Positions 2,068 to 19,050 of a DNA stretch of 22,751 nt are shown here, in pieces. Position numbers and translations under genes: made by a program. The notes beneath the pieces were generated by a model that saw nothing but the letters and a program-made list of their open reading frames with translations, did not search any database and was not told the DNA's origin. The stretch comes from a virus: IMG/VR virus record IMGVR_UViG_3300025401_000670, positions 1-22,751 of that record; one strand, written 5' to 3'. Within the stretch, counting starts at the first letter, position 1, and every line of letters begins with the position of its first letter.

Positions 2068-3192
2068 TTAATTCCCCTGTCTTACTGTAATAGGTTGACA
2101 ACCACCAGCAGTTACACACACGGTATTGATATAATAATTCTGTCCACCAGTTTGTGTTAAGTTTACACTACCCGGACCGCCAGCATTGGTAATGCTAATG
2201 CTGGCGTTGTTTGCTGTGCTACCTGATTGATTAACTGTGGCAGAATTTCCGGTGCCTAATAAGTTAACACTTAGATAATGTTGGCCGAGACCGCTTTGGC
2301 TTGTTGATACTGTATTCAAATCTCCTTGTACATTGACAAAGGATGCTTTGGCTGTATTGTCAGTTTGACTTGTATTCACAGTATTGTAATCTCCATTAAC
2401 AGTTGTTGACAAATAATGCCCACCACCACCTGTATTAGTCTGCTCGCTATTGACTTGGTTGCCTGTTCCAGTTACACTTATCGCTTGATAATGCTGTCCG
2501 TTATCTTGTCCGTTAGTTTGATTACCTAAGGTCGTTCCTTGGTTAAGTCCTAGGGTATTATAGCTACCATATACTTCAGCTTCAATTAAGTTCTGTCCGT
2601 AGGGATTACTTGGATCCCCTTGACGGATTTTAACAGTATTGCCCGAACCTTGTATTGGCATGCTCTGTTGTCCTAATCCTGCTACACTGTTTTGTGTACC
2701 ATTTTGTTGTACGATAACTGTATTGTTAGAGCCAACTTGATCTATATAGATACTATTTCGAGTAATATAATTAACTCTAGCACGGGCAGAATCTATTGCG
2801 GCTTGTTGATCAGCGGTAATAGCACTGACTGGTGTTGTTGGTGGCGGATAAAAAACATAAGTGGCACCGGATTCTCCCGGCACATTTAAATTTATTACTG
2901 CCCAATCAGCTGGATTACCTATAGAGTTTAAAGAAGCACCTGTTACAGTTCCGGCTTGCGGGCCTGTACAATTATTGCAGGTCCATACCCAACCGGGACC
3001 TATTCTAGAGACTGCGGATCCATTCCAGTCATGCATGCCAATGCTTCCAGACCATAGACCAACGTAGGTGTTATTGCCGTTTACATTTTGTATCGAGCCG
3101 GTACTACTATCCGTAGTTGCGGCATTTTGAGCATGAGCGTTACCGCACATATTGAGTCCTGCGACAAGAAATAATATCATTAAGTATTTCAT
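2068..3192 (-). CDS. Secreted curlin-repeat (CsgA/CsgB-like) protein with extra N-terminal domain
   Basis: A 374-aa protein with a Sec signal peptide (cleavage probable after AHA, residue 21). Residues about 22-145 form a non-repetitive domain containing a CxxC pair (C72, C75). From about 146 curlin-type repeats follow: NSIYIDQVGSNNTVIVQQNG, then many N-T-V / Q-x-G-x-x-N units to the C-terminus. Curlins (CsgA, CsgB) cross the outer membrane through CsgG and polymerise as amyloid; this one would be a fibre subunit, nucleator or tip. It is longer than CsgA (about 150 aa). The amyloid core starts like the other curlin here (NSIYxDQxGS). It starts one base after the FecR gene, so the two are co-translated. 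Which curlin is major and which minor cannot be told. Confidence 0.82.
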   Translation of the reverse strand: MKYLMILFLVAGLNMCGNAHAQNAATTDSSTGSIQNVNGNNTYVGLWSGSIGMHDWNGSAVSRIGPGWVWTCNNCTGPQAGTVTGASLNSIGNPADWAVINLNVPGESGATYVFYPPPTTPVSAITADQQAAIDSARARVNYITRNSIYIDQVGSNNTVIVQQNGTQNSVAGLGQQSMPIQGSGNTVKIRQGDPSNPYGQNLIEAEVYGSYNTLGLNQGTTLGNQTNGQDNGQHYQAISVTGTGNQVNSEQTNTGGGGHYLSTTVNGDYNTVNTSQTDNTAKASFVNVQGDLNTVSTSQSGLGQHYLSVNLLGTGNSATVNQSGSTANNASISITNAGGPGSVNLTQTGGQNYYINTVCVTAGGCQPITVRQGN

Positions 3193-3193
3193 G

Positions 3194-4324
3194 TTAGTTC
3201 TGCTTTACAGTTATAGTAGTACCGGCACCGGAGTTGATACGGTTCTTAAATGTATACTGCCCTTGAGTCATGTAGACTGTAGCAGTTTCATTCTTGTTTA
3301 CTGTTACACTTTCTTTGTTACTGCCATCATCACGATATAGTGTAACTGATAGATCATCCACGTAGGCCTTGATACCTGTACTGGCACGATAATCTGGTAA
3401 TAGTCCTGTATTAGTGGAATTTAGTAATTTCAATTCAGCGGCCAGCTCTTCATTTAACATAGTCAATACATTGGCTAGAAAATCCTGGTCTAGAAAGTTC
3501 TGAGCTAGCTTATTGGCGAATATCTGACGTTGTTGGTCAGCGAGCACGTTGCCCAAGTCTGCTTCTTTAAGAAAATCTTGACTTAATAAACTTACTGTGG
3601 TTCGTGATTGTTCTTGTTGTGCTTTCTTAAGTTCAGGGGGTGGTGATAGAATCAACAGATTATTCATAGCATCTAGACTAAGATTAATGGTTACCGGTTT
3701 AGTTGGGGGTTGACTGCGGCTTTCAACCTTAGTGGCTTGGAACGCTTGATCTAGTGTAACCGACCCTGCGTCAGTAATAACGTCAATAATTCCAACCTTA
3801 CAATCTCGCTTTACATCTGCCCATCCATTAGGACAGCTAGGCAATAGGATAACTGTACTGGCACCTAGTTCGTCTACAGTAGCAGTAAAATCAGTACCAC
3901 GAACAGCAATAGTAGCTGTAGGGGTATTGATGGCGACTCGATTAGGATTATTATGAGCAATAGCACCTGAAGCGTACCTGACAGTACCTTGCGCCATATT
4001 GAGAGCAAGTTTGCCTGCGGCAGGTTTTTTAGGGTCGTAGACAAATTCGTCAATAACTAGTCGACTATTTTCATTTACCTGTACCCTTGTATCGTCCGCG
4101 AATGTAATACCAACCTTACCTTGGTTGGTCTTTACCGCGTCCTCCATTTCCACTCCGGTTCCCTTGGTTCCAGTTAGAGTCGTCTTCGATCGTTGTATCG
4201 AAGCTGGGCTGTTCAATTGTTCCGTTATGGTCCCGATCGCGGCTTCGCAATTCGTGAATGTACTCCCTAAGAGTACGCATAGTAGTCCCGTCCATATTAG
4301 TCTCCTTTTATAAACCATGAGCAT
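3194..4324 (-). CDS. FecR-domain exported protein
   Basis: A 376-aa protein. The N-terminus (MLMVYKRRLIWTGLLCVLLG) is a signal peptide with probable cleavage near residue 29. A FecR domain lies at about 30-190, shown by the hallmark INTPTATIAVRGTDF (132-146). A helical segment (about 215-310) and a beta-rich end (GAGTTITVKQN) follow. FecR domains serve in envelope sensing; in bacteria they often sit beside CHASE2 cyclases. The start at 4324 is chosen for GAGAG 8 nt upstream and for the KRR n-region; 4318 is possible. The start overlaps the preceding 56-aa gene. The last residues resemble a curlin strand. It may gate or sense the amyloid secretion; that is inference. Confidence 0.8.
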   Translation of the reverse strand: MLMVYKRRLIWTGLLCVLLGSTFTNCEAAIGTITEQLNSPASIQRSKTTLTGTKGTGVEMEDAVKTNQGKVGITFADDTRVQVNENSRLVIDEFVYDPKKPAAGKLALNMAQGTVRYASGAIAHNNPNRVAINTPTATIAVRGTDFTATVDELGASTVILLPSCPNGWADVKRDCKVGIIDVITDAGSVTLDQAFQATKVESRSQPPTKPVTINLSLDAMNNLLILSPPPELKKAQQEQSRTTVSLLSQDFLKEADLGNVLADQQRQIFANKLAQNFLDQDFLANVLTMLNEELAAELKLLNSTNTGLLPDYRASTGIKAYVDDLSVTLYRDDGSNKESVTVNKNETATVYMTQGQYTFKNRINSGAGTTITVKQN

Positions 4325-4467
4325 TTTTGTAACTCTCGCATAACTTGATCAGCAGTGGTTCCATTTACACGAGTCACTAGTTCCACAAAGTCCAACCAAT
4401 TGTGTGCATAGTCATTCATACCATGACTCCACTGTTGGTACATGTGTTCTAGGAATCGTCGATCCAT
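4297..4467 (-). CDS. 56-aa hypothetical protein between curlin and FecR genes
   Basis: Hand-read: ATG at 4467, TAA at 4297-4299, starting MDRRFLEHMYQQWSHGM. It begins 2 nt after the curlin stop and overlaps the FecR start by 28 bp, so it fills what would otherwise be a gap of about 145 bp. The product is polar, probably helical, with many aromatic residues and no signal peptide. No SD is evident; translational coupling to the curlin gene would explain expression. The function is not recognised; a cytoplasmic helper or a small regulator are possible. Confidence 0.55.
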   Translation of the reverse strand: MDRRFLEHMYQQWSHGMNDYAHNWLDFVELVTRVNGTTADQVMRELQKCSWFIKGD

Positions 4468-4469
4468 GA

Positions 4470-5399
4470 TTAATTGTGATTACTTTGGTTTATAGTTGTA
4501 GTATTACTACTACCATTAATCTTTAGGTTAAGTATATTACTATCACTGGTAGTATTATTCTGTGTTACATTGACAGTATTACTGCTACCAGTCATGCCTA
4601 GGGCAACACTATTATTACCAGTTTGACCGATAGTAACACTATTACTGTTACCTACCATTGAATCACCTGAGGCATAACCACCAATGCTGACACTATTCAA
4701 ACCATTTTGATTGATTGTATAAGTGTTACTAGCACCATCGGATTTAATACCAACTGAGTTTCCACCCTGCATAGTGACCGAAGCAGTATTGTTGCCTCCG
4801 CCTATTAAGCTGATAGCGGCACTGCTATCACCACCAGATAGGTTAACATTTACTTGGTTGCTTGAACCTCCAGCTGTAGCGATATTAACATGATCCCTAC
4901 CACCTATCATTTTAATATTAACACCGGCATTATCACCAACTTGGACAACATTGACACTACTGCTGGTAAAGCTGTTTTGTCCATCGCCATTAAGATCAAT
5001 TATGGCTGTAGCACTATTACCTGTTACGCTATAGTTTACAGCAGGTGCCTGATAACCTCCCATGGTGCTACCCACCATGCTAATATCTAATTTATTTTGA
5101 TTACCTACTTGATTAATGTTGACTCCGGCATTATCACCGTAGAGTTTGGCTGAGACTGTATTATCATCCCCACCCTGGATCGGTTGTACTCCTCGGACAA
5201 CGTTTCCAAATCCATCCTGTGTGATAGCCACAGTTGCGCCACTACCGGATTGATCCACGTAGATGCTGTTATCTGCTGCCATTCCCAATGTTGGCATTGC
5301 AGCCACCATCAGAGTTGTAAGTAATTTTCTCGACAACTTACCAGCGCCTTTTAGACTTGATGTATTCATCATCATTTTTTGATTTGGGTTGGAACTCAT
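4470..5399 (-). CDS. Secreted curlin-repeat (CsgA/CsgB-like) protein
   Basis: A 309-aa protein with a long n-region and a signal peptide ending about residue 42 (MVAAMPTLGMAA). Nearly all of the mature part is curlin-like: NSIYVDQSGSGATVAITQDG, then repeated units such as NQVGNQN, SNTYTINQNG, SNSVTIGQTGNN and SNTVNVTQNN. The Gln/Asn/Gly ladder is what stacks in curli amyloid. With no unrelated domain, it is the better candidate for the main fibre subunit. It lies downstream of csgF and csgG, with a 135-bp leader. No SD precedes ATG 5399; the MMM triplet at residues 9-11 offers alternative starts. The repeats are divergent at the DNA level. Confidence 0.83.
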   Translation of the reverse strand: MSSNPNQKMMMNTSSLKGAGKLSRKLLTTLMVAAMPTLGMAADNSIYVDQSGSGATVAITQDGFGNVVRGVQPIQGGDDNTVSAKLYGDNAGVNINQVGNQNKLDISMVGSTMGGYQAPAVNYSVTGNSATAIIDLNGDGQNSFTSSSVNVVQVGDNAGVNIKMIGGRDHVNIATAGGSSNQVNVNLSGGDSSAAISLIGGGNNTASVTMQGGNSVGIKSDGASNTYTINQNGLNSVSIGGYASGDSMVGNSNSVTIGQTGNNSVALGMTGSSNTVNVTQNNTTSDSNILNLKINGSSNTTTINQSNHN

Positions 5400-5534
5400 T
5401 GTTTGTCATTTAAGCCAAACGCTTAGTTTATCCCCTCATCGCTCCTGGAGTCTCTGCTCCTTTAATTTTCGCTACTATCTTTCCTTTCTTAAAATATTTA
5501 CTGCATTTGCAACTAAGATTTTATACTACTACTA
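5400..5534. other. 135-bp leader between csgG and the first curlin gene
   Basis: No gene of useful length is seen. In the minus direction it holds two purine-rich SD-like stretches (AAAGGAGCAG and CCAGGAGCG). The second precedes a three-codon reading frame (ATG AGG GGA TAA, 5428-5439). No clear sigma70 promoter or terminator was found. The longer-than-usual spacing in an otherwise tight operon suggests separate control of curlin translation, for example through mRNA structure; that is inference. Confidence 0.4.
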
Positions 5535-6719
5535 CTATTGTTTTACTTCTTCCAACTTCTCTACAAGTATCCAACCGCCTCGTGATTGATTATCTGATAC
5601 TTTTATCCATCCTTCGCTACCAGCCTGTTTTATTTCTACTACGGTGCCTTTCTTAAATTGCCAAGTTTTTTGACTCTTATCATTTGATTCTCTATAAATG
5701 AATTCAGCTTCTTTTAATCTGCGTTGGCCAACTAATTCTTTAGGTTCTTCTTTTTTTACTTCTATCTTAGGTTCTTCTTTTTTTACTTCTATCTTAGGTT
5801 CTTCTTTTTTTACTTCCGTATCTACTGCAACCGGTTGAGTTAGGGTAGGTGTCATAACTACTACAGGTAGTTTACGATAATCCCATACTCCTTTGCGCTC
5901 ACCTTCTTTGATCATTTCTACCACTGCGGCTTCGACGGTAGTCTTAACTGCTAGTGTTGCAGGTTCATTAATAGTCAATCCGCTTTCAAATTCAAATATT
6001 CCTGCTGTAGCACTAGTTGATCCTGTGTTGCCATTAAATACCTGCTGAAGTATGCCGCCCCCTGGATCAATACTTTTTAGGATGGCTACGCTATCTGCTG
6101 TTGAGTAAATGATCTTAGTTACTGTTACTGCTGCAAGTATCTTACCTGTGTTTACACTAATAGCTCGTAAACTTACAGTAACAATATCTTTCGAGTATTG
6201 TGTCTGTGGACCTACACCCAAAAACTTATATGCCGCGCCTCCTGATTCTAGGCCTGTATCGTAACCAATGATACCACCTTCCATAATAATACCAGCGAAC
6301 TGCATTGGCATTAGGGGTTTAGCATCCTTGCCTTCATATGCTTCACGCATCTGTTTGATGATTAAGCGTTCTTTAGTAAGTGCATCGATGTTGCCACGCT
6401 CAACTACATCAAACCAACGGCCCTGTCCTACATCTTGTAGAGCTTTGATTAGGAACACCTCGGCACCCTGTGTGACCGCAGTTGAAAAACTAGCAACACC
6501 CGGAGTAGGTTTACGCTGTCCAGTTTTATCTGCAAACTGATAAACAGCAACACTGAGTTTAGGCCCCGCAGGTGGAGGAAGCAAATCAAATTCTTTTTGC
6601 ATCTTATTCTCTGCTAACTTGGGCTCATGCTCTATGCCCGCAAGTTGTCCTGTCTTTTGTGTTATCGCACAACCGGACATTAATAAAACTGTAGAAAAAA
6701 TAATTACTATTTTTTTCAT
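5535..6719 (-). CDS. csgG: CsgG-like curli secretion pore lipoprotein with C-terminal SH3-like extension
   Basis: A 394-aa protein. Residues 1-17 are a lipoprotein signal (LLMSGC, Cys17). Residues about 50-285 match CsgG: KLSVAVYQFADKTGQ, FSTAVTQGAEVFLIKAL, RWFDVVERGN, GGIIGYDTGLESGGAAYKF, and the C-terminal GVWDYRKL. CsgG forms the nine-subunit outer-membrane channel for curlins. Bacterial CsgG is about 277 aa; this one adds a linker with the repeat EVKKEEPKI (302-327) and an SH3-like domain (about 333-392: FIYRESN, FKKGTVVEIK, GWIKVSD, GGWILVEKL). In the constriction loop the E. coli KPYPASNF aligns with KPTPGVASF, so Tyr is Thr and Phe is kept (Phe78). It starts 1 nt after csgF. CsgG/CsgF homologues are known from marine phages (recollection). 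Confidence 0.92.
   Translation of the reverse strand: MKKIVIIFSTVLLMSGCAITQKTGQLAGIEHEPKLAENKMQKEFDLLPPPAGPKLSVAVYQFADKTGQRKPTPGVASFSTAVTQGAEVFLIKALQDVGQGRWFDVVERGNIDALTKERLIIKQMREAYEGKDAKPLMPMQFAGIIMEGGIIGYDTGLESGGAAYKFLGVGPQTQYSKDIVTVSLRAISVNTGKILAAVTVTKIIYSTADSVAILKSIDPGGGILQQVFNGNTGSTSATAGIFEFESGLTINEPATLAVKTTVEAAVVEMIKEGERKGVWDYRKLPVVVMTPTLTQPVAVDTEVKKEEPKIEVKKEEPKIEVKKEEPKELVGQRRLKEAEFIYRESNDKSQKTWQFKKGTVVEIKQAGSEGWIKVSDNQSRGGWILVEKLEEVKQ
5741..5815. repeat. 27-bp tandem repeat inside csgG (about 2.7 copies)
   Basis: Two exact 27-bp copies (5741-5767 and 5768-5794) and a third partial copy encode the repeat EVKKEEPKI in the CsgG linker. Each copy contains a run of seven T on the plus strand. 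The perfect identity of the copies suggests recent duplication and possible length variation between strains. Confidence 0.9.
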
Positions 6720-6720
6720 C

Positions 6721-7200
6721 TTAGTTCATATTAAAGGAATTAAGTGGTACGTTGATTACTGTAGTGTTACCTACGTTATCTCTAACAGTTAATAAAATAT
6801 TAGTTGGGTTAGTTGGGTCTTTCATCCAACTTAATGTATTGCCCTGGAAGTTAATTGTGCCGCCGCAAGCTGATGCATTTGCACTACAGGCGCCTCCTGC
6901 AAACATCTGTGTGGCTACGTTTTGACTAACCTGTGCGTAGATACGAGATTCTAAATTAGTTAAGAATTGATTAATGGGTTGATTACTAGCCGCACTTGCG
7001 GCTGCATCTTTAGCTGATTGTAATGCACTCAATACTGCCTGCTGACGTGTATACTGTTCATTCTCTATAGTCAGCACATAGGTACCGTATCCATTGCCGT
7101 TAAAACTTGGACTTTTAAATGAATAATCAGCCAAGGGCGTTGCTGCTACAAAAGCAGGAAACAGTAGAAGTACTGCAAGAAATTTTGCTGCTTTAGACAT
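6721..7200 (-). CDS. csgF: CsgF-like curli assembly factor
   Basis: A 159-aa protein with a signal peptide cut near residue 20 (AFVAA). The mature N-terminus (ADYSFKSPSFNGNGYGTYVL) aligns with the E. coli CsgF segment FRNPNFGGNPNNGAFLL, the part that inserts into the CsgG constriction and narrows the pore. The middle helix (NQFLTNLESRIYAQVSQNVA) and the beta-rich C-terminus follow the family plan. CsgF couples CsgG to curlin nucleation at the cell surface. This is the first gene of the curli-like operon; csgG follows 1 nt after its stop. A G-rich stretch (GGGGG) about 9 nt upstream is a weak SD. Confidence 0.85.
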   Translation of the reverse strand: MSKAAKFLAVLLLFPAFVAATPLADYSFKSPSFNGNGYGTYVLTIENEQYTRQQAVLSALQSAKDAAASAASNQPINQFLTNLESRIYAQVSQNVATQMFAGGACSANASACGGTINFQGNTLSWMKDPTNPTNILLTVRDNVGNTTVINVPLNSFNMN

Positions 7201-8565: not shown

Positions 8566-8573
8566 TATTTATA
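8566..8573 (-). promoter_or_regulatory. Perfect T4 late promoter box TATAAATA
   Basis: Exact match to the T4 late consensus on the minus strand, overlapping the stop codon of the bilin reductase (GTA TAA ATA) and 7 nt before the ATG of the nuclease-like gene. It indicates late transcription of that gene with almost no 5' leader. Confidence 0.7.
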
Positions 8574-9249
8574 CTATTTCTGGGAACAGGCAATCTTGTA
8601 TGAACACTTGTACATCTGCTTCGTTTAGGCCTAAACTAGCCATAACTTTAGGTGTATGCGGGTTACATTTCTGATTTAGGCAGTAGTAGTTTTGTGCTTC
8701 TGTAGTATCTACTGCTGTATTATTAGTTTCTGCCACAGTTTCTAGGTAATGGGCCAAAGTAGTGCGAGCCATGGACATAATTTGCTCTAATTCAGCTTCA
8801 TCCTGTACATTGCCCGCAGCCACCATACTAGGGCTGAATATGTTAGTAGCCCACTCGGGCAATGTTCTAGGTTTACGCCATTCTAACTTGCTAATTTCTT
8901 CAGCAAACCACGACATCATTGGATGATCGGGATCCCCAGCTTTTGAATAGTCATGGAAACAGCCAGTCATTTTGTTTTTACCAGCTACTACATCAAAGCC
9001 GTAAATTGGAGCAGGATTATGAGTATGTGGGAAGATGCAACAGTGCATCATCCAAAGTCCTTTAGTTTCTCTCGCATCCACCACGTCAACGTGAGCACGG
9101 CGATAGCGATCACTAGTCCATACCCTATTAATCCAGCCAGGTTGGTTAAAACGATCCATCCCAGGTTCGAAAATTTCAGTGCCTGTAAGATCAAAACTTT
9201 CTTCCAGCAAATGCTGTATTTCTATTAGTGTGTCCCAGACCTTACTCAT
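8569..9249 (-). CDS. Ferredoxin-dependent bilin reductase (PcyX/PcyA-like)
   Basis: A 226-aa protein of the PcyA/PebS/PcyX family: ESFDLTG, RYRRAHVDVVDARETKGLW, MMHCCIFPHTHNPAPIYGFD, VVAGKNKMTGCFHDYS, and the C-terminal NYYCLNQKCN motif. These enzymes reduce biliverdin with electrons from ferredoxin. Aligned to Synechocystis PcyA, His88 and Asp105 are kept (His69, Asp86), while Glu76 is Asp55; at the second Asp position important in PebS (the ND of the NDKT-type motif) this protein has Pro197 (NPHTP). These changes fit the phage PcyX group reported to form phycoerythrobilin (recollection), but the product cannot be proved here. Its start overlaps the heme oxygenase stop by 8 bp, so substrate production and use are translationally coupled. 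Confidence 0.92.
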   Translation of the reverse strand: MSKVWDTLIEIQHLLEESFDLTGTEIFEPGMDRFNQPGWINRVWTSDRYRRAHVDVVDARETKGLWMMHCCIFPHTHNPAPIYGFDVVAGKNKMTGCFHDYSKAGDPDHPMMSWFAEEISKLEWRKPRTLPEWATNIFSPSMVAAGNVQDEAELEQIMSMARTTLAHYLETVAETNNTAVDTTEAQNYYCLNQKCNPHTPKVMASLGLNEADVQVFIQDCLFPEIV

Positions 9250-9796
9250 CCTGATATTCTACAAGATCCATCATTTCTTTAAAAAAATCAGTAGCAAATT
9301 CAAAACAAATTTTAGCTTCATCGGCCATATCATCACTGATCTTTTCACGGACAGCAGCCTTGAGTGCTTCTGGATTTTCAAACTGATACATGCGTCCAGC
9401 ACCTGGAATTTTTTTGGCAATCATCTGTCCACCAGCAAGATCTCCCATGTGGCGCACATAGATATGTGCCATTAGTTTTTTTGGATCATGTTTAATACTC
9501 ATGATATGATCCATATAGCGTTTGACTACCGGTAGAATTTGTGGATCACCGTCTTTTTCATCATCCCACAATTCCATAAAGTCTGCAAGTATATGCGGTG
9601 CTCTGCGAATTTCAGGCATGCTGTTTAACAAACCATGCGGCATTGCGCATACTTCTAACAACTCATATTGTGGGTGTTGATTTTTTAAATATACCGCGTA
9701 GAGTTTAGGATTAATCGTTCCCGAAAATAAAATCTTTACAAACTCTTGACGTTCTGCATTCTGATGTGCTTCGTGGGTTAGGTCTCTTAAGCTCAT
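9242..9796 (-). CDS. ho1: Heme oxygenase
   Basis: A 184-aa protein, shorter than cyanobacterial HO1 (about 240 aa) but with the core intact. The proximal heme ligand is His11 (EAHQNAE), and the distal helix signature is MGDLAGGQ (117-124), preceded by AHIYVRH. The reaction opens heme to biliverdin, releasing Fe(II) and CO, using reduced ferredoxin. The next gene encodes the bilin reductase that consumes biliverdin. The start ATG overlaps the clpS stop in an ATGA. Besides bilin, released iron may matter in an iron-poor host; that is inference. Confidence 0.93.
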   Translation of the reverse strand: MSLRDLTHEAHQNAERQEFVKILFSGTINPKLYAVYLKNQHPQYELLEVCAMPHGLLNSMPEIRRAPHILADFMELWDDEKDGDPQILPVVKRYMDHIMSIKHDPKKLMAHIYVRHMGDLAGGQMIAKKIPGAGRMYQFENPEALKAAVREKISDDMADEAKICFEFATDFFKEMMDLVEYQDE

Positions 9797-10139: not shown

Positions 10140-10571
10140 TTATTTAACCTTAATGATACGAGGTTTTAATGCTTCTGGAACAATACGTTCGATATTAATA
10201 ATCAACATACCGTCCTTGACTTCTGCATCCTTAACTTCCATGTATTCAGCCAAAGTCCAATTCTGTTCAAAGTTACGGCTAGCTAAACCACGGTGCAAAT
10301 ATTCTTTGCTCTCGTCTGTAGTTTCAGCTTGTATACCACGAACAACTAATTGATCCTGATCTATTTCAACTGAGATTTCATCTTTGCTGAAACCTGCAAC
10401 TGCTACTTCGATAGCATAAGCACTATCACTATACTTCACAATGTTGTGTGGAGGATAGTTTCCGTTTACTTGTTGTAATCTTTGATTAAAGATTTGATCA
10501 AAGCCAACTAGAGCTCTGCTTAGATTAGCCAATTCGGCTGGTGTTACTGTTTTTAATTGCATTGTTGCCAT
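10140..10571 (-). CDS. hsp20: Small heat shock protein Hsp20 (IbpA-like)
   Basis: A 143-aa protein starting at ATG 10571, which has AAGGAG 7 nt upstream; an in-frame extension upstream lacks support. The alpha-crystallin domain runs from about residue 40: YPPHNIVKYSDSAYAIEVAV, EYLHRGLASRNFEQNWTLAEY, and the signature AEVKDGMLIINIER. The C-terminal PRIIKV supplies the I-x-I-type anchor. It holds unfolded proteins for DnaK/ClpB. Hsp20 is a common core gene of marine T4-like phages; having dnaK directly upstream is not. The leader contains a ROSE-like thermosensor candidate and its own promoter in the dnaK 3' end. Confidence 0.95.
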   Translation of the reverse strand: MATMQLKTVTPAELANLSRALVGFDQIFNQRLQQVNGNYPPHNIVKYSDSAYAIEVAVAGFSKDEISVEIDQDQLVVRGIQAETTDESKEYLHRGLASRNFEQNWTLAEYMEVKDAEVKDGMLIINIERIVPEALKPRIIKVK

Positions 10572-10627
10572 TTTTAATCTCCTTATAGTAAGCAAGAATG
10601 TGCAGGGCCCCGAAGGCACCCTACATT
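10572..10627 (-). promoter_or_regulatory. ROSE-like RNA thermometer candidate in the hsp20 leader
   Basis: Two adjacent hairpins. The first (10597-10627): AATGT-AGGG ... CC TTC GG ... CCCT-GC-ACATT. The second (10579-10596): CUU-G-CUU, loop ACUAU, AAG-GAG, in which the SD AAGGAG pairs with CUUGCUU leaving one bulged G (or a G-G pair). That is the hallmark of ROSE elements, in which UYGCU masks the SD and melts on warming. The spacing from SD to ATG is 7 nt. The dnaK leader has the same design and sequence. Confidence 0.6.
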
Positions 10628-10630
10628 TTT

Positions 10631-10659
10631 ATTATATTACTTCTCTTCTTTAGGGTCAA
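10631..10659 (-). promoter_or_regulatory. Sigma70-type promoter for hsp20 (TTGACC-17-TATAAT)
   Basis: -35 TTGACC (10654-10659) and a perfect -10 TATAAT (10631-10636) with 17-bp spacing on the minus strand, inside the 3' end and over the stop codon of dnaK. A start about 7 nt downstream would place the first leader hairpin at the very 5' end of the hsp20 message. Confidence 0.75.
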
Positions 10660-12547
10660 CCTCTGTAAAGCTCGCATCTACTGTTTGCTCAGCAGCCTGT
10701 GGTTGGGCTTCAGCTTGAGCTTTAGCCTGTTCAGCAGCCTGTTTTTTAGCAGTCAGTGGATTAGCAGCTTCAAAGAATGACTGTACAGCTTTTTGGATAG
10801 CCTCTACATCTTCACCGGCCATTGCAGTGTTAACAGCGTCAAGCGCGGTTTGGTATGCAGTCTTTTCCTCTTCAGTTAATTGATCTTGATATGCATCAAA
10901 ATCTTTCTTAACTGTATGTAGTGAAGCCTCAGCTTGATTACGTGCTTCAATCAATTCCTTGGCTTTCTTATCAGCTTCAGCATTTTCTTCAGCTTCTTGT
11001 ACCATGCGTTGGATTTCAGCATCAGTCAATCCTGAATCAGATTTGATAGTAATCTTGTTTTCTTTGCCAGTGTTTTTATCTCTGGCACTTACATTCAAGA
11101 TACCATTAGCATCTAGATCGAGTGTAACTTCAATCTGTGGCATGCCACGCATTGCAGGAGCAATACCTTCTAAGTTGAACTCGCCCAGTTGCTTATTATA
11201 CTTGTACAACTCACGCTCACCTTGTGCAACCTTAATGGTCACAGCTGGTTGATTGTCTTCTGCTGTTGAGAAAACTTGTGAGTGCTTAGTTGGGATAGTA
11301 GTGTTCTTAGGAATCAATTTGGTAAACACACCGCCCATTGTTTCAATACCCAATGTTAATGGTGTAACGTCTAACAACAATACGTCTGTCTTGTCGCCAG
11401 CTAGAACAGCACCTTGTACTGCGGCACCTGCGGCAACTGCTTCGTCTGGGTTAACGTCTTTACGTGGAGCCTTGCCAAACAGTTTCTCAACTGCTTCTTG
11501 TACTTTAGGCATACGTGTTTGACCACCAACTAGGATAACTTCATCGATATCACTAGCACTTACCTTAGCATCGGTCATAGCAATCTTACATGGCTCAATT
11601 GAACGTTGGATTAAGTCTTCAACCATTTGTTCAAACTTACTACGGGTAATAGTAATGTTCATGTGCTTTGGACCGCTTGCATCAGCAGTAACATATGGAA
11701 GATTTACTGTAGTCTGTTGTGTGCTTGACAGTTCAATCTTGGCTTTTTCAGCGGCATCTTTCAAACGCTGTAAAGCAAGCATATCATTTTTCAAATCAAT
11801 ACCGTTGTCTTTCTTAAACTCGTCGACTAGGTGATCCATGATACGTTGGTCAAAGTCTTCACCACCTAAGAATGTATCACCGTTTGTGCTTAATACTTCG
11901 ATCTGTTTATCGCCGTCGATATTTGCGATTTCAATGATCGATACGTCGAACGTACCACCACCAAGGTCGTAAACAGCAATTTTGCGATCTCTTTTATCAG
12001 CTTTATCAACGCCATAAGCAAGAGCTGCCGCAGTAGGCTCGTTAATAATACGGAGTACTTCCAAGCCGGCAATTTTACCAGCATCTTTAGTAGCTTGTCT
12101 TTGACTGTCATTGAAGTACGCTGGTACTGTAATGACTGCTTGTGTAACTGTTTCACCTAGATAATCCTCTGCTGTTTTTTTCATTTTACGAAGTACTTCA
12201 GCTGACACCTGTGGTGGAGCCAGTTTTTCGCCATTTGCTTCAATCCATGCATCGCCGTTGTCGGCTTTGACAATAGCGTATGGCATAAGGTCAATGTCTT
12301 TCTGTACTTCTTTTTCGTCAAATTTACGCCCAATCAAACGCTTGGCCGCATAGATTGTATTTTTTGGATTCGTGACTGCTTGACGTTTTGCTGTTGCACC
12401 AACTAAAATTTCTTTGTCAGTGTATGCAATGATTGACGGTGTTGTTCTAGCACCTTCGCTGTTTTCGATTACTTTTGCAATTCCATTTTCTAGGATTGCT
12501 ACGCAGCTATTTGTTGTACCCAAGTCGATACCGATGATTTTGCTCAT
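10637..12547 (-). CDS. dnaK: DnaK (Hsp70) chaperone, full length
   Basis: 636 aa from ATG 12547 (AAGGAG 6 nt upstream), the normal bacterial length. The N-terminal ATPase carries [51 protein letters not shown] and [12 protein letters not shown]; the linker [10 protein letters not shown] leads to the substrate domain ([23 protein letters not shown]) and helical lid. The C-terminus ([13 protein letters not shown]) resembles the usual VVDAEFEEV tail. Nothing is missing, and the sequence is canonical DnaK rather than HscA. It looks like a host-derived proteobacterial gene. No dnaJ or grpE is in the window, so it would need host co-chaperones. Full-length dnaK is uncommon in phages. The leader is ROSE-like. 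Confidence 0.97.
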
Positions 12548-12609
12548 AATTTTCTCCTTATAATTAAGCAAGTAAATATGTACAGCCCTTACGGCGCTCT
12601 ACACATTTA
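12548..12609 (-). promoter_or_regulatory. ROSE-like RNA thermometer candidate in the dnaK leader
   Basis: First hairpin 12573-12609: outer stem TAAAT/ATTTA and TGTA/TACA, inner AGC/GCT and CC/GG, loop GTAA. Directly after it, 12554-12572: CUU-G-CUU, a 6-nt loop, then AAG-GAG, so the dnaK SD is paired opposite CUUGCUU with a bulged G. Sequence and order match the hsp20 leader (shared TTGCTTA, then TATAAGGAGA), which implies one regulatory element used twice. Confidence 0.6.
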
Positions 12610-12615
12610 TTTATC
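12608..12615 (-). promoter_or_regulatory. Late-type box GATAAATA before dnaK
   Basis: One mismatch to the T4 late consensus, between the MazG-like stop codon and the dnaK leader hairpin. Transcription from it would begin within the first arm of that hairpin. No good sigma70 promoter was seen for dnaK. Confidence 0.4.
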
Positions 12616-18027: not shown

Positions 18028-18357
18028 TTAGGAATTATAACTTTGGATTACATCGTTTAGCAGTTCATCCAAATCCTTGTCTAGCATTTGGGTATTAAGT
18101 TCATATATATCATCATCTATGCCCTCTGTATCTGTAAAACCTAAAATCTCAAATACTTCTCTTCGACTAATTTGCTCATTCCGCATATTAGCCACCCAAA
18201 TTACAGTAATAACCATACAGGCTATAATTTTTTCATCTGAGTAGATATCGTGTTTTTTGCACCATTCTACAGCCTGATTTACATGATAGGTTATATCTTC
18301 AATTCGATGTTCTAATTGGGCGATCCATTCTAATGTGTTATCTCGATTCCAGGTCAT
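18028..18357 (-). CDS. 109-aa hypothetical protein after iscA
   Basis: Start ATG 18357 overlaps the iscA stop as ATGA, so the two are translationally coupled. The product is acidic and mostly helical (NTLEWIAQLEHRIEDITYHV, DKDLDELLNDVIQSY), with a hydrophobic stretch IIACMVITVIWVA that may be a buried helix. The family is not recognised. By position it might assist the Fe-S proteins; that is inference only. Confidence 0.7.
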   Translation of the reverse strand: MTWNRDNTLEWIAQLEHRIEDITYHVNQAVEWCKKHDIYSDEKIIACMVITVIWVANMRNEQISRREVFEILGFTDTEGIDDDIYELNTQMLDKDLDELLNDVIQSYNS

Positions 18358-18698
18358 ACTCGAAAACTTTCCCCGCATCCACATTCATCTTTGGCATTTG
18401 GATTGATAAATTTGAATCCTTCGTTGAGTCCGTCTCTAACATAGTCTACAGTCATACCTGTAAGATATGGAAAATCTTTTTTTGAACATACTACTTTGGC
18501 ATATTGATTGCCACCCATCCAATACAGGGTATTTTCATCCAGGCTGTCGAGATATTCTAGTGTATAGGCCAATCCAGAACATCCGGTAGTTTTTACACCT
18601 ACACAAATCCCTATACCTTTGCCACGCTGAGCTAGCTTTTTTTGGATCTGTTTGGCGGCTGCCTCAGTTAAGATTATTGGTTTTTCTTCTGTAGTCAT
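18354..18698 (-). CDS. iscA: A-type Fe-S carrier IscA
   Basis: 114 aa. The three cluster-binding cysteines are present: Cys40 (TTGCSGLAY), Cys106 and Cys108 (DECGCGESF). The C-terminus (GLNEGFKFINPNAKDECGCG) is almost the E. coli IscA sequence, so IscA fits better than ErpA or SufA. It receives or delivers Fe-S clusters or iron. The start lies 35 bp inside iscU, so translation is coupled. No iscS, hscA, hscB or fdx is in the window; sulfur would come from the host IscS. Confidence 0.95.
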   Translation of the reverse strand: MTTEEKPIILTEAAAKQIQKKLAQRGKGIGICVGVKTTGCSGLAYTLEYLDSLDENTLYWMGGNQYAKVVCSKKDFPYLTGMTVDYVRDGLNEGFKFINPNAKDECGCGESFRV

Positions 18699-19050
18699 CT
18701 ATGGCAGCCTTAATAGCGTCTTCCGCAAGGATACTGCAATGGATCTTAACCGGCGGGAGTGCGAGCTCCTCTGCAATCGCAGAATTCTTAATTGATCCAG
18801 CCTGCTCCAGCGTTTTACCCTTGACCCATTCGGTGACAAGTGACGATGAAGCGATCGCCGACCCACAGCCATAAGTTTTAAATTTCGCATCTATTATTAT
18901 TCCGTCTTCTACTTTAATTTGTAATTTCATCACGTCACCGCAGGCCGGGGCCCCGACCATACCAGTGCCTACCGCTGGATCAGCCGCATCCATTTTTCCT
19001 ACGTTACGTGGATTTTCATAGTGATCTAATACTTTATCGCTGTAGGCCAT
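18664..19050 (-). CDS. iscU: Fe-S cluster scaffold IscU
   Basis: 128 aa, the same length as E. coli IscU and very similar: MAYSDKVLDHYENPRNVGK. Cluster ligands Cys37, Asp39 (APACGD), Cys62 (YGCGSAIASSS), His104 and Cys105 (KIHCSIL) are all present, and so is LPPVK (98-102), the motif bound by the chaperone HscA. All residues for cluster assembly with host IscS and release by HscA/HscB are kept, so it should dock into the host machinery. A phage IscU is unusual. It begins 1 nt after the 54-aa secreted peptide gene. Confidence 0.97.
   Translation of the reverse strand: MAYSDKVLDHYENPRNVGKMDAADPAVGTGMVGAPACGDVMKLQIKVEDGIIIDAKFKTYGCGSAIASSSLVTEWVKGKTLEQAGSIKNSAIAEELALPPVKIHCSILAEDAIKAAIDDYRRKTNNLN

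Follow-up and report, generated by a model that had tools for sequence, protein, structure and literature searches.

Our comparative analysis of a 22,751-nt stretch of DNA (the window), which comes from a large freshwater virus of bacteria, indicates that the leaders of its hsp20 and dnaK genes are likely to be ROSE-type RNA thermometers that govern how Hsp20 and DnaK of the phage are translated. This reading is based on the sequence of the leaders and its conservation, on covariation in their first hairpin (hairpin I), on the confinement of the element to leaders of chaperone genes, and on the fact that it and the Rfam family ROSE_3 recognize each other. A first-pass annotation had noticed the element before hsp20; the observation is real and was under-stated, and the second copy before dnaK had been missed. 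The parts of the two leaders are as follows.

10140..10571 (-), hsp20, the putatively regulated gene, encoding an IbpA-type small heat shock protein of 143 aa
10570..10625 (-), complete hsp20 ROSE-like element (ROSE_3 28.8 bits, E 1.5e-4; phage model R1 68.8 bits, an identical leader, L002, having been among the R1 training sequences)
10579..10584 (-), Shine-Dalgarno (SD) sequence AAGGAG of hsp20, read directly, immediately 5′ of the AUG
10585..10589 (-), hairpin II loop of hsp20, ACUAU, 5 nt
10590..10596 (-), anti-SD CUUGCUU of hsp20, with the bulged G and the ROSE U(U/C)GCU motif
10601..10625 (-), hsp20 hairpin I, UGUAGGGUGCC-UUCG-GGGCCCUGCA, with compensatory changes in relatives
10631..10636 (-), TATAAT, likely -10 element of an hsp20 promoter, just 5′ of hairpin I
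10637..12547 (-), dnaK (Hsp70), the second putatively regulated gene, with its ATG at 12547
12545..12603 (-), complete dnaK ROSE-like element (ROSE_3 25.2 bits, E 0.0013; also matched by R1)
12554..12559 (-), SD sequence AAGGAG of dnaK
12566..12572 (-), anti-SD CUUGCUU of dnaK
12579..12603 (-), dnaK hairpin I, UGUAGAGCGCC-GUAA-GGGCUGUACA (ROSE_3 25.2 bits; R1 45 bits, E 6e-9)
12608..12615 (-), GATAAATA, resembling a T4-type late promoter, 5′ of the dnaK element

The hsp20 leader reads, on the minus strand, UAAUAUAAUAAAAA-UGUAGGGUGCC-UUCG-GGGCCCUGCA-CAUU-CUUGCUU-ACUAU-AAGGAG-AUUAAAA-AUG, the start codon being the ATG at 10571. As the first-pass annotation had claimed, AAGGAG can pair with CUUGCUU 5 nt upstream, and coordinates, spacing and pairing (C-G, U-A, U-G, the bulged G, C-G, U-A, U-A) are all as described. 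The stable first hairpin which it placed ahead of the anti-SD is likewise present (10625-10601); it is G+C-rich, covaries in relatives and carries a bulged G of its own (YGCC/GGG). The assignment to an IbpA-type small heat shock gene is borne out by a Pfam HSP20 score of 61.2 bits and 40% identity to E. coli IbpA. The leader has the U(U/C)GCU motif, the bulged G, the conserved upstream hairpin and the position before a small heat shock gene that characterize ROSE-type elements. None of 200 dinucleotide shuffles folds as well as the leader (z -2.97), and the pattern TTGCTTN{0,9}AAGGAG occurs twice in the window, in the hsp20 and dnaK leaders, where 0.06 occurrences would be expected by chance. 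For dnaK, a longer open reading frame of 644 aa begins at a spurious TTG start and reads through the anti-SD at 12566..12572. The minimum-energy fold at 37 °C, in which UUGCU of the hsp20 leader pairs with GGCAA of the coding region, was rejected: many relatives start with ATGACACAA or ATGCAA, and this pairing is not conserved.

Among 4227 Rfam families, ROSE_3 (RF02523) was the best at each of the two window leaders, and the alignments span its full length (positions 1-69) for both of them as well as for Methylophilales phage Melnitz-3. The curated gathering cut-off of ROSE_3 is 43 bits, and at the gathering threshold Rfam gave no match in the window; the scores of 28.8 and 25.2 bits, that of Melnitz-3 (34.1 bits) and those of every other scored phage leader lie below it. 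A covariance search, which the first-pass annotation had proposed as a check, thus favoured the ROSE assignment in family and length but not in score. RF00435 gave no match in the window. With ROSE_3 the phage elements share the two-hairpin layout, the YGCC-loop-GGGY arrangement in hairpin I and U(U/C)GCU opposite the SD; they differ in their scores (25-34 bits, where the cut-off is 43), in the A+U-rich loop of hairpin II and in their occurrence before dnaK as well.

The relation to cellular elements was approached with two phage models, R1, built from 16 hsp20 leaders, and R2, built from R1 matches. In 200 Pseudomonadota genomes, R2 found a single match at E <= 0.05 (L443), located 5′ of an IbpA-type gene, and this leader scores 67.1 bits with ROSE_3 of Rfam, above the cut-off. 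Since the cellular match of R2 is itself a ROSE_3 element, the phage and cellular elements recognize each other. The phage-type element seems to be rare in this genome sample, as judged from a sequence scan with strict filters, which lose weak matches. On E. coli, R1 gave no match at ibpA, and R2 gave merely a weak, non-significant match before ibpB and none at ibpA. The E. coli ibpA ROSE element (ROSE_2, RF01832) resembles the phage leaders in having UCUCGCU opposite CAGGAG with a bulged G, but differs in its hairpin I, which the phage models do not match at ibpA, and in a hairpin II that is predicted to be stronger. A closer counterpart is the two-hairpin, ROSE-like ibpA leader of Pseudomonas, a proven thermometer in which hairpin II alone senses temperature while hairpin I stays folded, and in which single-base deletions strengthening hairpin II lower expression (PMC3669281). 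The phage leaders share with it the two hairpins, a length of about 60 nt, the stable hairpin I, U(U/C)GCU in hairpin II and the small heat shock gene (PMC3669281). Hairpin II of the Pseudomonas leader melts and, by analogy, that of the phage leaders may do so as well. In contrast to the phage elements, which sit behind phage-type promoter motifs, the Pseudomonas gene is cellular and transcribed by a heat-shock sigma factor. Taken together, the match to ROSE_3 and to these proven elements supports, at the level of sequence, the ROSE-like interpretation and layout given in the first-pass annotation.

To assess conservation, we read 80 viral contigs with a related hsp20 and 80 with a cyanophage-like hsp20. 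Nearly all relatives that reach far enough upstream carry a hairpin with the core Y-G-C-C-loop-G-G-G whose arms change together, for example GUAGGG/CCCUAC, GUGGGG/CCCCAC, UGAGGAG/CUCCUCA, GUA/UAC, UGU/ACA and UGGA/UCCA. It is followed in the 3′ direction by U(U/C)GCU, a short A+U-rich loop and AGGAG, and the bulged-G motif, Y-G-C over G-G, is common to both hairpins. A few hsp20 leaders of relatives lack a clear element. The fetched loci contain 792 distinct starts with AGGAG. U(U/C)GCU directly precedes AGGAG at 268 of 276 hsp20 and all 41 dnaK starts versus 23 of 475 other starts, the last figure being inflated because a match to the motif was the reason for fetching many of the loci. CUUGCUU is kept in relatives, and the sole substitution, C for U, falls on the wobble position (72 C and 47 T at the second base of the motif, and nothing else, in loci not selected for it). 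In several dnaK leaders of relatives (L008, L010, L017, L019 and L029) we observed a three-hairpin form, with an extra hairpin of the GGGC-AAGG-UGCCC type between hairpin I and the anti-SD.

Covariation is strong in hairpin I, and both sequence-level tests named in the first-pass annotation, covariation and the conservation of CUUGCUU, favour its reading. A hairpin I with at least 3 pairs beyond the YG step is present in 110 of 119 hsp20 leaders from loci not selected for the motif, compared with 175 of 6340 shuffles; there are 169 distinct versions, and most stem positions show all six standard pairs. Cells changed on both sides in the model-based alignment described below number 175, against 40.7 +/- 11.2 in shuffles and 16-47 with slid partners. 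A MAFFT alignment of all leaders (A2) misaligned some hairpin loops and the SD, and a model-based alignment was therefore used. In this model-fitted alignment of 93 distinct leaders, which leans towards the structure, 96.0% of cells pair, versus 84.1% in shuffles and 49-60% with slid partners; a smaller MAFFT alignment, not fitted to the structure, gave 98.5% and 28 double-changed cells versus 9.2. RNAalifold recovers the two-hairpin structure from the model-fitted alignment, which is itself fitted to that structure. Helix II is nearly invariant and has almost no covariation beyond the exchange of U-G and C-G, which keeps the pairing, because one of its sides is the fixed SD; its conserved G, unpaired in the structure, is the bulged G of the anti-SD/SD helix. 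These patterns also bear on the idea that the element is a functionless relic brought along with hsp20 from a bacterial donor. Resemblance to cellular ROSE_3 would be expected of such a relic, but compensatory substitutions across very different phages and a constant position behind phage-type promoter motifs indicate that selection has continued, and dnaK has the element too. We consider a relic highly improbable.

The element is largely confined to chaperone genes. In two IMG/VR scans that used the anti-SD plus SD alone, 155 of the matches listed had an ORF of 60 aa or longer; hsp20 accounted for 136 of these, and the remainder included dnaK, GroES and small phasin-like genes. In 597 kb, every R1 match at E <= 0.05 lay in a leader of hsp20 or dnaK. 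R2 gave one match per genome in seven named phages (55-469 kb), always at hsp20, and in large window-like phages it matched hsp20 and dnaK with a few weak extra matches (E 0.08-0.9). The seven comprise Melnitz-3, Synechococcus phages S-SKS1, Bellamy and ACG-2014f, phage C48C1, Sinorhizobium phage Phosso and Pelagibacter phage HTVC115P, in which the hairpin is weaker. Twelve further named phages were inspected, most of them chosen from places scattered through the hit list, and 11 have the element; among these are Prochlorococcus phage P-SSM3, Agrobacterium phage Atu_ph07 and Pseudomonas phage Paride. In all, 18 of 19 named phages inspected have it. The exception among the 12 is cyanophage S-TIM61 (L452), whose hsp20 has no clear element and which offers a natural contrast. 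By tblastn, hsp20 is found in 508 GenBank phage records, and leader DNA resembling that of one cyanophage query in 172 cyanophage records. In Paride (host PAO1; L451:353-402), the element before hsp20 has UUGCG in place of UUGCU. One phage contig carries a ROSE-like leader before GroES (L243:10728-10777) and a second before hsp20. In four two-gene operons in which a small phasin-like gene is followed by hsp20 (L222:4206, L312:10928(-), L377:8538(-) and L412:1968(-)), the ROSE-like element precedes the phasin-like gene and not hsp20. Three other genes with the motif (L105, L107 and L109) match TTGCTA, probably by chance.

In several of these phages (S-SKS1, Bellamy, ACG-2014f, C48C1, S-SSM7, S-CAM1 and S-CAM4), regA lies next to or near hsp20, which would fit a leader to which a phage regulator binds in trans, for instance RegA, a translational repressor of the T4 type. 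However, the element matches cellular ROSE_3, where RegA is not expected, no regA was noticed among the genes of the window, and we regard this explanation as very improbable.

Promoter-like motifs (the T4-late-like TATAAATA or TTAAATA, or TATAAT) lie a few bases 5′ of hairpin I in 191 of 255 hsp20 and 25 of 26 dnaK leaders, as raw counts in A+T-rich phages. If these are promoters, transcription begins at or close to hairpin I; this hairpin would then be the 5′ end of the mRNA, and the leader an independent unit rather than the terminator of dnaK. Hairpin I of the window, with its UUCG loop, starts 12 bases past the stop codon of dnaK, as it might if it were merely a terminator or 3′ end of dnaK with a chance anti-SD match. 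This reading is contradicted by the relatives: in named cyanophages, hairpin I follows a promoter-like motif and dnaK is absent upstream, dnaK has such an element in its own leader, and the anti-SD is conserved. Moreover, no U-run follows hairpin I in the window. We give the terminator reading almost no credence.

In the thermometer reading, a phage promoter just upstream would start the mRNA, whose 5′ end would fold into the stable hairpin I, followed by a weak hairpin II in which U(U/C)GCUU pairs with the AAGGAG ribosome-binding site around a single bulged G. This would keep the ribosome off at moderate temperature; upon warming, hairpin II would melt but hairpin I would persist, and existing mRNA would be translated into Hsp20 and DnaK. 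The RNA would thus open with temperature in the cell, and repression would presumably be relieved during infection. Nearest-neighbour folding predicts the hsp20 SD of the window to be 23% unpaired at 20 °C, 41% at 42 °C and 52% at 50 °C, and helix II to weaken from -4.1 kcal/mol at 25 °C to -1.4 at 42 °C. Folding energies are a poor guide and weak evidence here, because the dnaK leader fails (its SD in the full leader is about 80% unpaired at all temperatures in standard folding) and the E. coli ibpA thermometer comes out too rigid (almost fully closed even at 50 °C).

Alternatively, the leader could mainly sense protein aggregation, with phage Hsp20 bound to its own leader, and perhaps to that of dnaK, and repressing translation until it is titrated off by misfolded protein. 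In E. coli, IbpA uses R93 to repress the ROSE-bearing mRNA that encodes it (PMC10474464). Of 260 phage Hsp20s, 243 have R and 17 have K at the R93 position, and all have Y or F at the Y34 position; the window protein keeps Y and R at these positions. In addition, many of these phages probably live in waters with small temperature swings. On the other hand, R97 and K98 are also needed in E. coli IbpA, where alanine at either abolishes repression (PMC10474464), and K98 is seldom basic in phage Hsp20, the window protein having Q at 97 and N at 98. As the main function, aggregation sensing appears unlikely to us. Such self-repression can coexist with temperature sensing, and we favour temperature sensing as the main mechanism, with self-repression by the small heat shock protein as a possible, compatible second layer.

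Phage RNA thermometers have been described for lambda cIII, SPbeta blyA and a gut-phage sigma70 (PMC11182007, PMC10586365). They resemble the present elements in being carried by phages, but none of them lies at a chaperone gene, and that of blyA is a fourU thermometer. The statement in the first-pass annotation that it knew of no phage example therefore needs qualifying for RNA thermometers in general; in the open full-text literature on ROSE with phages or cyanophages, which includes few subscription papers, we found no ROSE-type element at a phage chaperone gene. Likewise, there is little sign of an earlier description of ROSE-type structures before the chaperone genes of many sampled phages, several of them cyanobacterial. 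On balance, we lean towards the view that large aquatic phages, several of them cyanobacterial, run their own RNA-based heat-shock regulon, in which ROSE-type thermometers before hsp20, dnaK and, in single loci, GroES would supply chaperones on demand from standing mRNA without a host heat-shock factor. If so, ROSE-type thermometers would be a recurrent feature of phage chaperone genes, ROSE control would extend to dnaK, and a testable role would be given to the genes for phage small heat shock proteins and DnaK, about whose purpose little is understood. The question also bears on the effect of warming water on infection.

Several other genes of the window attracted our attention. Downstream of hsp20 and clpS, a heme oxygenase gene is followed by a ferredoxin-dependent bilin reductase gene (8569-9796, minus strand), and genes for an IscU/NifU-N and an IscA-like protein, both iron-sulphur cluster assembly proteins, adjoin each other at 18354-19050 (minus strand). 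Moreover, positions 2068-7200 (minus strand) hold a curli-like gene set in a phage:

6721-7200 (-), CsgF
5535-6719 (-), CsgG with an SH3 domain
4470-5399 (-), curlin-repeat protein, borderline
3194-4324 (-), FecR-domain protein
2068-3192 (-), further repeat protein of the curli-like set
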